From Agrobacterium vaccinii (GTDB taxonomy: Bacteria > Pseudomonadota > Alphaproteobacteria > Rhizobiales > Rhizobiaceae), in contig NZ_CP054151.1 in assembly GCF_021310995.1 (NCBI RefSeq), positions 1,185,001-1,249,000 on the forward strand: a DNA stretch of 64,000 bases, read 5' to 3'. Within the stretch, counting starts at the first letter, position 1, and each line of letters begins with the position of its first letter. The translations under genes and the position numbers were made by a program. This document shows positions 31,442 through 35,038 of this stretch, piece by piece. Under the pieces are notes generated by a model. The model was not told the origin of the DNA. It made no database searches and saw nothing but the letters and a program-made list of their open reading frames with translations.

Positions 31442-32155
31442 CTAGAACGGGCCGACCAGGCGTCGGTATTCTGCTTCGGCAGGGCCATAGGTGCCGCTCG
31501 CAAAGCTCTCCAGACCCTGTCGCTCCAGTATCTTGATCTGATTTCGTTCCGCCGAAATCAGATGTTGACCCTCCAGAACATGGAGTGCGGTGGTGACGCT
31601 TTGGCGCCGCACGGCCAGCACTTCTGAAATGAACGCGTGTGTGAGGCCGATGGCCTCGCCATTCGATCTGTCATGGCACATCAGCAGCCAGCGAGCGAGG
31701 CGCTGCTCGATGTTGTCAGTGGCGTTGGAAAGCGCTGTAAACGCCGTCTGAACGGACATCACCTGAGCAAATCTTAACAGCAGGGATCGAAGATTGAAGC
31801 TCTGCTCCATGGCATGGGACACATGGATGCTCTGGATTCTGTAGCCGTATCCGGCAACCTGCATGAATGTCGAATAGGGCGCGGTCGGATCGTGCATGAT
31901 GAGCGAGGTCGGAAACATGCCTTCCGAACCAAAAATGCCGATCTCTGCCTTCCGACCTCCGCTGACTTGCGCAACGACGGACGCTATTCCTCGGTCGAGA
32001 AAATAACAGTAGTTGGCAATCTTGCCGGATGACGAGAGCTCATACAGCCTCGGCAGTTCCAGCGCTTCCAGATGGGGGGCAAGACGGGAGAAATCGACCG
32101 GGTCCAACGCCGAGAGGAGTTTATTATGAACCGTCGATTGTTGAAGATTGCTCAT
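31442..32155 (-). CDS. Crp/Fnr-family transcription regulator
   Basis: 237 residues from ATG 32155 (MSNLQQST). The N-terminal beta-roll (YCYFLDRGIASVVAQVSGGRK...GIFGSEGMFP) is cNMP-binding-like but lacks the cAMP-binding Arg/Ser pattern, and no FNR-type cysteine cluster is seen. The long dimer helix is followed by an HTH_Crp domain: LARWLLMCHDRS, TRAFISEVL-type (LTHAFISEVLAVRRQSVTTA). Where CRP has SRETVGR in the recognition helix, this protein has RRQSVTT, so its operator should differ from TGTGA. The 16-bp TGTCC-N6-GGACA palindromes found here have CRP-box geometry, so they are good candidates for its sites. A tail of about 20 residues follows. Confidence 0.9.
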   Translation of the reverse strand: MSNLQQSTVHNKLLSALDPVDFSRLAPHLEALELPRLYELSSSGKIANYCYFLDRGIASVVAQVSGGRKAEIGIFGSEGMFPTSLIMHDPTAPYSTFMQVAGYGYRIQSIHVSHAMEQSFNLRSLLLRFAQVMSVQTAFTALSNATDNIEQRLARWLLMCHDRSNGEAIGLTHAFISEVLAVRRQSVTTALHVLEGQHLISAERNQIKILERQGLESFASGTYGPAEAEYRRLVGPF

Positions 32156-32300
32156 ATTCTTAACCTCAGTGAGGGCAAGAGCAATGATCATCTCCTAGCC
32201 GTTCGCGCCATGAAGTTGCGAACGATGAGTCGCTTTAAGCCATTGGCGTGGCGGATGTATGGCGGCCTTGGAGATCACTATGCAAGGCCTCCAGACTCCA

Positions 32301-32316
32301 TGTCCGAAATGGGACA
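32301..32316. promoter_or_regulatory. Palindrome TGTCCGAAATGGGACA (box 1)
   Basis: 16 bp with arms TGTCC/GGACA and a 6-bp centre, 146 bp upstream of the Crp-like gene start. One of four related copies. Confidence 0.65.
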
Positions 32317-32563
32317 ATTCGGCATGACTTTTAATAGAAATCGCTTGATATCACAGATTACAACTTCGATCTGTGAAGTTATAGCCACGGCAATTTTTAG
32401 TAACCTTAAGTCTCAAAAACTGTGTTGTGGATATACTGTTTCCGGCTCGTTCCCGTTGTATTCTCTTATCGGCCGCAAAACATTAGAAATAACTAATTAA
32501 ATACTTGCGCCTGCTACGTTGCAATGAAAACCGCACCTTACGCAACGGCAGACGCTGATACTC

Positions 32564-32579
32564 AGTCCGAAATCGGACG
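32564..32579. promoter_or_regulatory. Palindrome AGTCCGAAATCGGACG (box 2)
   Basis: Same 16-bp motif with altered outer bases, between the ArsR-like stop and the Crp-like gene. The inner GTCCGA-AATCGGAC is conserved. Confidence 0.55.
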
Positions 32580-32648
32580 AACACAAAAGGCTGGGTGTTT
32601 GAAACCCATGCGAGCATTGCTCAACTGTGGTACGTGAACACCGTTACG

Positions 32649-32978
32649 TCAGGCAGACGACTCAGTTGCCAACGGATGCTGCGGTATCCCGAAAATATCG
32701 TAGAGCGTCGCGAGGAGATGAATAGCTGCCGAGGAATTGCAGGAGTAATAAATCGTCTGCGCATCTCGCCGTGTACTGACGAGATTGGCATCACGAAGTT
32801 TTCCCAGATGCTGTGACAAGGCAGACTGGCTGAGGTTCACCATCTCGGCCAGCTGACCGACGGGCACCTCCCGCTGGCTTATAATATCGAGAATATGCAG
32901 GCGCTTTGCATTGGCCATCGCTGCCAAAATGCCCGCAGAATCCAGTACCGCACGGTCATCGGAGAACGTAGTTTTCAT
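32649..32978 (-). CDS. ArsR-family regulator, NolR-like
   Basis: 109 residues from ATG 32978; a TTG two codons upstream is possible. Winged HTH: GILAAMANAKRLHILDIIS, VPVGQLAEMVNLSQSALSQHLGKLRDANLV (recognition part NLSQSALSQHLGKLRDANLV), then the wing STRRDAQTIYYSC. This LSQSALSQHL...LVSTRRDAQTIYYS pattern closely resembles NolR, a global rhizobial regulator of nodulation, conjugation and growth genes. No metal-binding CXC motif of the arsenic-type sensors is present. Preceded by box 3 at 33142. Whether it is NolR itself or a paralogue is undecided. Confidence 0.85.
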   Translation of the reverse strand: MKTTFSDDRAVLDSAGILAAMANAKRLHILDIISQREVPVGQLAEMVNLSQSALSQHLGKLRDANLVSTRRDAQTIYYSCNSSAAIHLLATLYDIFGIPQHPLATESSA

Positions 32979-33141
32979 AGGCAATTCCCGTCACGGGAGG
33001 ACGTCGTTCAAATTGAAAAGAAGCGATACGAGAACCAGTGCGCATGCGAATCACTTCGCTTTCGCATGTGACCGCTTATCCAGCGGTGAAACGAAGAGTG
33101 TCACCTTCCGAGCTCGTATGCAATACAAGTAATCACATATA

Positions 33142-33157
33142 TGTCCGATATCGGACA
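33142..33157. promoter_or_regulatory. Perfect palindrome TGTCCGATATCGGACA (box 3)
   Basis: 16 bp, every base paired, 164 bp upstream of the NolR-like start and just after the stop of the receiver gene. Best copy of the motif. Confidence 0.72.
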
Positions 33158-33195
33158 TTGTGCGAGCCATAAGCGACATGCCCTTGGCGCGGTCG

Positions 33196-33567
33196 TCAGT
33201 CTAGCGACACAAGCTTACGCAGCGAAGCAATGACATGGTCTGGCTGATACGGTTTAGGGATGAAATGTTCTCCGATACCGAGCGTCTGGTCGCGCAAATG
33301 GTGATGACGGGATGTCATGATGATCTTGATCGGTGGCCATCGATCCCTCACAAACGCTGCAAGTTTCAGGCCGTCTACATCACCGGGAATATCGATGTCG
33401 GTAAACAGGACGCTAATGGCAGGGTTGATTGCCAACACGACGATCGCTTCCGTTGCGTTTGCAGCCTCAAAGACCTCGAAGCCCTCTGCTTCCAAATCCG
33501 CAACGATAGCAGATCGAATGAGTGCCTCGTTCTCAACGACGAGTACGGCAATCCGGTCCTGGGGCAC
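33196..33567 (-). CDS. Single-domain response regulator (CheY-like receiver)
   Basis: 123 residues, probably GTG start at 33567. It is a receiver domain only: IAVLVVENEALIRSAIVADLE with the acidic pocket reduced to Glu-Asn-Glu (usually Asp-Asp), SVLFTDIDIPGDVDGLKL with the phosphorylatable Asp, IIMTSRHHH with the conserved Thr/Ser, and EHFIPKPYQPDHV with the conserved Lys-Pro. No output domain, so it acts by protein contact or as a phosphate shuttle. Box 4 lies 56 bp upstream. No histidine kinase gene is nearby. Confidence 0.9.
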   Translation of the reverse strand: MPQDRIAVLVVENEALIRSAIVADLEAEGFEVFEAANATEAIVVLAINPAISVLFTDIDIPGDVDGLKLAAFVRDRWPPIKIIMTSRHHHLRDQTLGIGEHFIPKPYQPDHVIASLRKLVSLD

Positions 33568-33622
33568 GAAGGTCTCGCTTCGGTAGGAGGCAATTCACGA
33601 ATGGTGGTGTACACCACTTTAA

Positions 33623-33638
33623 TGTCCTTTATCGGACA
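33623..33638. promoter_or_regulatory. Palindrome TGTCCTTTATCGGACA (box 4)
   Basis: Arms AATGTCC and GGACATT extend the symmetry beyond the 16-bp core; 56 bp upstream of the receiver gene's start, a position compatible with direct promoter control. Confidence 0.7.
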
Positions 33639-34196
33639 TTAAAGATCCGACCTCGAATAGGTTCCACCTTATCTTTCCGCCAGGCCTATGGTTTTCGCCA
33701 ATGAGACGCAATCCGTGCCACGACGGCACAACGCCGGTATGGTGCTGAATGGCGCGCGATGCAGTTATTTGGAGGGGCATTTGTGAGAAGGTGTGTGCAC
33801 AGACGACCAACGTCTGCCGCGCTAGGGCACTTGAGCACAATAGCGCAATCGATCACCAGCCCTATATGGCGATCATTCAGAACCCCGTGACTCGCCTCTG
33901 GCAGACGCGATTCTGCAATGAGACCGGAGCTGGCCCGTTCACCTAGTCTGTCACCGTAGGATGAGTCGCGCTGACGTTGATGAAACAACACGCGGCGCGG
34001 GTTCTGACGGAGTTGGTATCTCCAACACCACAACGCAAACGCCATCGGCTCGGCACTCATTGCGAGGCCAAGGCCGACGGAATTAATGACGCACAATTAC
34101 AAGCAGGATTCAAATCTGAATCCCACTTGTGATTCGACGGTCTTCTCGCACTTGCCAAGGGGCGCGTGCGGTCATGACGAAGTGCTGATCGAGTGC
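33639..34196. other. No gene recognised between the receiver gene and rpsU
   Basis: About 560 bp. A minus-strand open frame (33686-34096) has no family features and atypical composition. The rpsU terminator must lie in the lower part but no clean hairpin with T-run was identified. Confidence 0.35.
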
Positions 34197-34457
34197 TTAG
34201 GTCGTAGAAGCAGGCTTGGCCTGTGGAGCAGGCCGCTGCTTCTTCGGTGCTACGATGCCCAGCTCGCGGTTCAGCTTCTTCTGAGCGAGTTTACGGACTC
34301 TGCGGATGCCTTCAGCCTTTTCGCGGGCGCGCTTGACTGATGGCTTCTCATAGCTTTCACGGAGACGCATTTCACGGAACACGCCTTCCTGTTGAAGGCG
34401 CTTCTTCAGTACGCGTAGCGCCTGATCGACATTGTTATCACGGACGAGGACTTGCAA
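34197..34457 (-). CDS. rpsU: 30S ribosomal protein S21
   Basis: 86 residues. [20 protein letters not shown] and the basic stretch [20 protein letters not shown] are the S21 signature. The C-terminal tail ([15 protein letters not shown]) is the Ala/Pro/Lys-rich extension typical of alphaproteobacteria. S21 binds near the 3' end of 16S rRNA and assists initiation. It stands alone here, 149 bp downstream of the TonB-like gene, and probably has its own promoter. Confidence 0.96.
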
Positions 34458-34606
34458 GCTTTAGCTCCTGGGTAACATTCTGGCAATTATGCACAGTCCA
34501 TACCCTGCGATTGGGGCTTTTGGCAAGTGTATCGTCACATACTGAGCATAACATTGCGTAATGAACGTGCGATTGGAGGGTAAATAGGGTGAGAGCGGAG
34601 GCCACA

Positions 34607-35038
34607 CTAGGGTGCTGGTGGCTTCGGGGGCTCCGGAACCAGCTTGAAAACCAGGGGCGCACTGATACGCCTCGGCGTTTGCGGCATGTCCTTGGTGAAG
34701 GGAAGAAAGGGTACGGCCTTGGCGGGAATCTCCAATGCAGCCGCGTCAAGGGCGTCATCCCCGGACCCCTCCATAAGACGCACATCGGAGACCGACCCGT
34801 TGGACTTGATGGTAAAGTCAATTTTTAAGGCGTAGTCCCCCACAATTCCGCGCTTGCGAGCTGCATTCGCGATTGGAATCGAAGCGCGTCTCAGTCGCGT
34901 ACTCACATATCTGTTCCACTCAGTCGCGTTTTGCGGCAGCGGTGCGGACGGCGCTTCCGCGGAAGTCGCTGAAATATCTGCAGTAAATGGTAAGGCGAGC
35001 GCCAGCATCATAACTAAACCGACTCTAGACAGCTTCAT
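34607..35038 (-). CDS. Secreted TonB C-terminal-like protein
   Basis: 143 residues from ATG 35038. Signal peptide MKLSRVGLVMMLALALPFTADISA, then a domain resembling TonB_C: RKRGIVGDYALKIDFTIKSNGSVSDVRL, GSGDDALDAAALEI, then Pro-rich end (VPEPPKPPAP). Classical TonB has an N-terminal anchor and a long Pro-rich periplasmic linker; here the domain follows a cleavable signal directly, so it is probably a soluble periplasmic TonB-C-like protein rather than an energy transducer. The open frame extends upstream to 35296 without support. Confidence 0.8.
   Translation of the reverse strand: MKLSRVGLVMMLALALPFTADISATSAEAPSAPLPQNATEWNRYVSTRLRRASIPIANAARKRGIVGDYALKIDFTIKSNGSVSDVRLMEGSGDDALDAAALEIPAKAVPFLPFTKDMPQTPRRISAPLVFKLVPEPPKPPAP

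Follow-up and report, generated by a model that had tools for sequence, protein, structure and literature searches.

Rhizobial and agrobacterial genomes each encode several Crp/Fnr paralogs, and FixK2/FNR operators are of the TTGAT type. A published operator for these rhizobial and agrobacterial paralogs was not found among the literature matches listed (titles and abstract openings). For better described systems, the respective papers report that Escherichia coli CRP reads G2 of its TGTGA half-site with Arg180 and the G4:C4 pair with Arg185 and Glu181 (PMC11253593), that the CooA operator is TGTCGGCNNGCCGACA, a 16-bp TGTC...GACA sequence (PMC545781), and that NolR has the consensus (A/T)TTAG-N9-A(T/A) (PMC12445080).

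Here, we analyzed a 64,000-nt stretch of the Agrobacterium vaccinii genome (NZ_CP054151.1, positions 1,185,001 to 1,249,000), which we call the window. A sequence-only reading had reported four copies of a 16-bp palindrome around three regulator genes, and we found all four at the reported places. Box 1 (TGTCCGAAATGGGACA, 32301-32316) is the crp-proximal candidate operator, and its far edge lies 161 nt from the ATG of a crp-like gene. Box 2 (AGTCCGAAATCGGACG, 32564-32579), the distal and weakest copy, lies 70 bp beyond the stop codon of an arsR-family gene, in the arsR-crp gap. Box 3 (TGTCCGATATCGGACA, 33142-33157) is a perfect palindrome upstream of arsR, and box 4 (TGTCCTTTATCGGACA, 33623-33638) lies upstream of a receiver-only gene; none of the boxes is assigned a strand. 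Thus, one box stands upstream of each of the three minus-strand genes and the fourth between arsR and crp. The pattern TGTCCGANATCGGACA is matched exactly by the box at 33142 only; the other three deviate by 1, 2 and 2 mismatches on the better strand. The 5-6-5 geometry that the boxes were said to share with the CRP site holds. We propose, with a probability of about 0.72, that the boxes are operators of the Crp-like protein, which would form a conserved, mainly local autoregulatory circuit of shifted specificity.

The proposed box binder is encoded at 31442-32155 on the minus strand (237 aa from a leader-supported ATG; the ORF is open to 32191). It belongs to the Crp/Fnr superfamily. PF13545, the C-terminal Crp-type winged helix, matched with E 2.4e-13 and 50.3 bits (cut-off 27), and the AlphaFold2 model shows strands within residues 30-108 and a helix at 120-146, that is, an N-terminal beta-roll and a long dimer helix. 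Performing fold comparison, we find that the model matches FNR, NtcA and CRP over nearly the whole length. The protein has no Pfam match to the cNMP-binding domain (PF00027), though some relatives carry it. Its alignment with CRP has a gap at the RSA segment, which belongs to the cAMP pocket of CRP.

The CRP alignment places R184, Q185 and T189 at Arg180, Glu181 and Arg185 of CRP, and the recognition helix begins at residue 184 in the AlphaFold2 model. The altered recognition helix suggested earlier is borne out residue by residue (VRRQSVTT versus CSRETVGR), and the RETVGR recognition motif of E. coli CRP is replaced by RQSVTT. The box differs from the CRP site in parallel, being TGTCC and not TGTGA: G2 and its arginine are kept, whereas base pair 4 has changed together with the two residues reading it, with Gln and Thr in place of Glu181 and Arg185. 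A contact code of R184 with G2 and of Gln185/Thr189 with C4 would be consistent with these changes, which fall short of proof. CooA of Rhodospirillum rubrum has Arg-Gln at the same helix positions (SSRQTTSTAL, PDB 1ft9; matched by eye). Its half-site, TGTCG, shares the TGTC start with TGTCC but not the fifth base. CooA was absent from the PDB sequence matches of the Crp-like protein at E 0.1 and from the 50 fold matches listed, the latter absence telling nothing either way, and a literature search found no direct statement on the residues of CooA. The TTGAT-type operator of FixK2/FNR differs from the box.

We checked whether the boxes exceed chance. Allowing up to three mismatches to TGTCCGANATCGGACA, the window holds 12 matches with both strands counted, compared with 1.78 expected and a highest value of 7 in 100 shuffles; eight of the 12 are the four boxes. 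The looser TGTCC-N6-GGACA core with two mismatches occurred 28 times in the window against 27.3 by chance, which is no excess, so that weight can be put on the near-exact form alone. Genome-wide (4.87 Mb, three contigs), the exact TGTCC-N6-GGACA, hereafter the strict site, occurs at 7 places and a reversed control at 2. Three of the seven strict sites lie within 1.34 kb at this locus (the box at 32564 is not among the seven). Uniform placement of seven sites brought three of them into a 1338-bp stretch in 18 of 2,000,000 simulations.

Next to the chance estimates stands conservation. An ortholog of the Crp-like protein is present in 3 of 39 genomes of the genus, the own one included; the others are G031 (77% identity) and G019 (72%), the two spanning 72-78% over all comparisons. 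Other genus matches found at E 1e-40 have 36-47% identity and count as paralogs, one of them (42%) in the own genome. Among 394 genomes of the family, we found two further orthologs, G424 and G211, in another genus (60 and 59% identity, 58-60% over all comparisons). The G031 and G019 loci retain arsR, the perfect TGTCCGATATCGGACA ahead of it as the same 16-mer, a distal box (counterparts of box 2 at L055 6094 in G031 and L056 6020 in G019) and the crp-proximal box. Counterparts of box 1 lie 160-161 nt before crp in G031, G019 and G424. The spacing from distal to crp-proximal box is 250, 256 and 263 bp in the three arsR+crp genomes, and the inter-box DNA has diverged between orthologous loci with the boxes kept. 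No counterpart of box 4 and the receiver gene was found in the orthologous loci compared.

G424 and G211 also have boxes upstream of crp; a second strict box in G424, TGTCCGGTACCGGACA (L148 1443-1458, G424:C16), stands about 1.1 kb ahead of the crp-proximal one. Around crp in these two genomes, no arsR/NolR-like match was detected within 12 and 17 kb at E 1e-3, a search limited in G424 by a contig end 2.7 kb from crp. The boxes thus persist beside all four other Crp orthologs, two of which lack an arsR match, and appear to travel with the Crp-like gene; this favors the Crp-like over the NolR-like protein as the binder. By comparison, no strict TGTCC box occurs at any of the 27 paralog loci examined in the genus (L028-L054, including the own paralog at L052); 4 of the 27 have 9/10 box matches.

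We then compared upstream regions across the subfamily. The 90 tblastn rows gave 84 sequences after short and identical ones were dropped; 19 were added to make 103, and a redundancy cut left 99. The pattern TGTNCG-N4-CGNACA was present at 9/10 or better in 26 of the 99 (dinucleotide shuffles, mean 0.9 and maximum 4) and at 8/10 or better in 54 (mean 10.45, maximum 19), an excess that is flattered because the pattern was generalized from the same 99 sequences. That the subfamily at large has such palindromes upstream also speaks for the Crp-like protein as the binder. The variants include TGTACG-N4-CGTACA and the mixed TGTCCG-N4-CGTACM, several Pro-type relatives combining the TGTCCG left half with the CGTACM right half. 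The TGTCC form occurs in 5 of 7 upstreams of Gln-type genes and in 1 of 96 others (Fisher p 1.4e-6, shared descent not corrected for). The distance from box start to ATG is 160-161 nt for four of the five Gln-type genes with TGTCC and 237 nt for the fifth (G211); six relatives at 50-53% identity have 136-159 nt, and the others range over 59-212. Among the 120 homologs listed out of 786 matches, all 28 with 55% identity or more (own entry included) have Gln, compared with 13 of the 92 less similar ones.

Gln alone as the code was rejected: the Gln-type L179 has TGTGCGATATCGTGCA instead of a TGTCC box, at nearly equal distance, and the Gln-type L187 has no box in its upstream DNA. A strict TGTAC as the counterpart in all other members was also rejected, being found in only 10 of 96 non-Gln upstreams. 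Judged by identity (58-78% to the query), the five Gln-type proteins with TGTCC boxes seem to form one clade, so the link between helix and box may be a single event.

To consider the direction of control, we looked at promoter geometry. A sigma-70 consensus scan found no promoter, and the elements below are candidates named by position. A possible -35 of crp, the weak hexamer TTGCAT (32280-32285, minus strand), starts 16 nt past box 1, followed by a putative -10, CATACA (32256-32261, minus strand). At equal offset, G031 has TTGCTT and G019 TTGCAT, and CATACAT at the candidate -10 is kept in all three orthologs. For arsR, the candidate -35 is TTGCAT (33118-33123, minus strand), starting 19 nt past box 3, with TTGCAT in G031 and TTGCAC in G019 at the same offset. 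Accordingly counted, TTGC lies at +16 in 3/3 crp-proximal boxes, at +19 in 3/3 arsR boxes and at 19 or 16 nt past 2/3 distal boxes of the three genomes. With box 4 added this makes 8 of 10, and with the G424 and G211 boxes 8 of 13 over five genomes. Box 4 has TTGC at +30 and G424 TTGT at +17; the distal G424 box, the G211 box and one G019 box have no TTGC at the fixed offsets. From the TTGC frequency of the window, the chance of TTGC at two fixed positions is about 0.01 per box, a figure to be read with the offsets picked post hoc and the crp leader region homologous between the genomes. If CATACA is the -10, the box center falls near -59, not far from -61.5, where CRP sits at class I promoters. 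The recurrence of TTGC at +16/+19 suggests class-I-like activation, and activation is most likely the direction of control, in preference to repression.

Just 5′ of crp lies a predicted two-hairpin leader RNA of 75 nt (32153-32227, minus strand) with its second hairpin at the ribosome-binding site. The window leader scores 79 bits with the R1 model, in whose training set the same sequence is included. Across 14 leaders, 87.5% of the pair cells are standard pairs compared with 33-54% for slid pairings and 83.4% for column shuffles (0/500 as high). Five pairs changed on both sides (5/500 shuffles as high). The second hairpin is altered in the own genome, and the RNAalifold consensus pairs a conserved CTCTTG with an upstream GAG stretch rather than the ribosome-binding site; with this different second helix, two folds are possible. 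Searching the window and 62 of 189 loci with the leader model gave 32 sites at E 0.1, with 14 of the 63 sources having supplied training sequences. Further copies precede other Crp-like genes and also unrelated frames of some 70-100 aa, one of which has DUF6894, in rhizobia and relatives (L189 2235-2312, L105 3494-3568, L193, L195, L196 and L201). The leader resembles ROSE-type thermometers. That identity was unsupported by searches of Rfam (4227 models), which gave no match at E 1 in window positions 31900-34700 and, at E 10, none for L193 and three for L125 far below the gathering scores.

The arsR-family gene (32649-32978, minus strand) encodes 109 aa if read from the ATG at 32978 (in the ORF list it begins with TTG 32984). 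Its product matches PF01022 and HTH_metalloreg, with NolR (4omy) as the best PDB match (E 5.9e-26). Its winged helix is of the ArsR type and carries the recognition helix of NolR, the recognition region being nearly identical to that of Sinorhizobium NolR (SQSALSQHLxKLR). A sequence at 32482-32497 in the arsR-crp gap, ATTAGAAATAACTAAT (no strand), fits the NolR consensus; a near copy exists in G019 and none in G031. The NolR-like protein more probably uses this site than the TGTCC boxes, and through it may act on crp. At E 1e-15, NolR-like matches number at least one in each of the 39 genus genomes and three in the own genome, where another copy (G000:C1:2197431) is 59% identical to the window copy; by E-value, the closest counterparts are in G031 and G019, followed by G021 at 58%. 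Given these numbers, the window gene is probably an additional paralog.

The receiver-only response regulator (33196-33567, minus strand; 123 aa, PF00072) is the weakest member of the circuit, since the gene was not found in the orthologous neighborhoods compared. A perfect palindrome, GTGGTGTACACCAC, at 33603-33616 between box 4 and this gene is a possible second operator. Receiver-only or receiver-like genes adjoin several Crp-like paralogs (L187, L188, L129 and L154). Overall, 10 of 84 Crp-like loci, own included, have a receiver-like match no farther than about 1.7 kb away, in a search of low sensitivity because of its threshold (E 1e-6) and three seeds. This count does not support the receiver as a fixed partner; it suggests a partnership that is recurrent and not general.

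Does the circuit extend beyond this locus? The remaining four strict sites of the own genome all lie inside frames of 246-536 aa, one of which we take by eye to be NtrX. The circuit therefore looks mainly local. Seven next-best sites inspected in the own genome were also all overlapped by frames, L012 by an 86-aa frame only. The reading-frame test is a weak one because boxes 1 and 4, two of the four here, are themselves overlapped by spurious frames. At L012 1501-1516 (G000:C2:6478), the start of the 86-aa frame holds TGTACGATATCGTACA, an ideal TGTACG-type palindrome that this genome's second Crp-like protein may target. The genome-wide targets that the sequence-only reading had envisaged are thus unsupported as worded, the scan placing both the four other strict sites and the seven next-best ones within frames.

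Some observations point further. The 3-mismatch pattern occurs genome-wide 121 times forward and 114 times reverse versus 57 and 55 for the reversed control, a twofold excess. The four other box-bearing genomes have 27 strict places listed, of which we inspected the 15 loci L133-L147 and also L150-L153, besides the crp loci. L133 is the arsR box; at L134, L138, L144 and L146 the strict site is free of frames or lies under frames shorter than 100 aa only. The intergenic strict box TGTCCATTCTCGGACA is identical at L151 2057-2072 (G424:C2) and L152 1972-1987 (G211:C76). In both genomes it sits under short frames, 31 bp upstream of a frame of more than 660 aa that we take by eye to be GlnD-like. 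Its conservation is not independent, since the flanking DNA of L151 and L152 is 87-88% identical. Taken together, the twofold excess and the TGTCCATTCTCGGACA box before another gene make targets beyond the crp locus possible, and the gene behind TGTCCATTCTCGGACA is a possible second target in G424 and G211. A genome-wide regulon may exist; as the main claim it is unsupported, with the four outside strict sites in frames.

The comparative data support the small interlinked regulatory circuit that was first suggested, and several other explanations have to be weighed against our assignment of its binder. The closest one keeps the Crp-like protein on the boxes as a repressor or dual regulator, with the distal box serving DNA looping. 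It overlaps our main reading, as the binder is the same in both. Negative autoregulation is common, and the distal box is retained in all three arsR+crp genomes; however, the boxes lie upstream of the candidate -35 elements and not over them, and the distal-to-proximal spacings differ by non-helical steps. We regard this possibility as real but doubtful. The alternative binder named at the outset, the NolR-like ArsR protein, would repress arsR itself as well as crp and the receiver gene from the TGTCC boxes. ArsR-family repressors commonly autoregulate, and a perfect box precedes arsR in three genomes. Nonetheless, comparison favors the Crp-like protein: boxes stay with crp in G424 and G211, where the 12 and 17 kb searched hold no arsR-like match, and the NolR-like recognition region is nearly identical to that of NolR, whose consensus (PMC12445080) is matched at 32482. 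We therefore consider the NolR-like binder improbable.

It is likewise quite improbable that the boxes serve a regulator encoded elsewhere, for example a second Crp-like paralog. The 42%-identity paralog in the own genome and the related palindromes across the subfamily would make room for such a regulator, but the absence of a strict box from all 27 same-genus paralog loci, and the way strict boxes track this ortholog group and its helix, argue against it. Still further down, we place the idea that the repeats are not operators but what is left of a mobile or repetitive element. The unit is patchy, as the 3 of 39 genus genomes show, yet the boxes persist where inter-box DNA diverges, and only seven strict copies exist genome-wide.

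Returning to the Crp-like protein as the binder, we envisage the following mechanism. A dimer would contact one TGTCC half-site per subunit, R184 reading the G at position 2, and Gln185 with Thr189 replacing the Glu181/Arg185 pair so as to permit C4. From a position some 60 bp ahead of the transcription starts, it would activate its own gene and the NolR-like repressor gene and, in the own genome, also the receiver-only gene. The NolR-like protein would close a second loop via the NolR-type site at 32482, between arsR and crp. Combining these elements, we tentatively sketch a two-layer switch, to which we give rather less than even odds: an autoregulated activator from a TGTNCG subfamily with a drifting fourth base, together with a NolR paralog and a leader that masks the ribosome-binding site.

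No description of the box, the circuit or the leader was found among the literature matches listed (titles and abstract openings). For the subfamily, TGTNCG-N4-CGNACA emerges as a candidate operator, along with a relation between residue and base at position 4 that can be tested. The leader shows covariation and matches no Rfam family, and it could put the same genes under translational control as well. If the two-layer switch is true, it would offer a natural series for the CRP recognition code, and the leader masking the ribosome-binding site would be common to many rhizobial Crp-like genes and to unrelated small genes.
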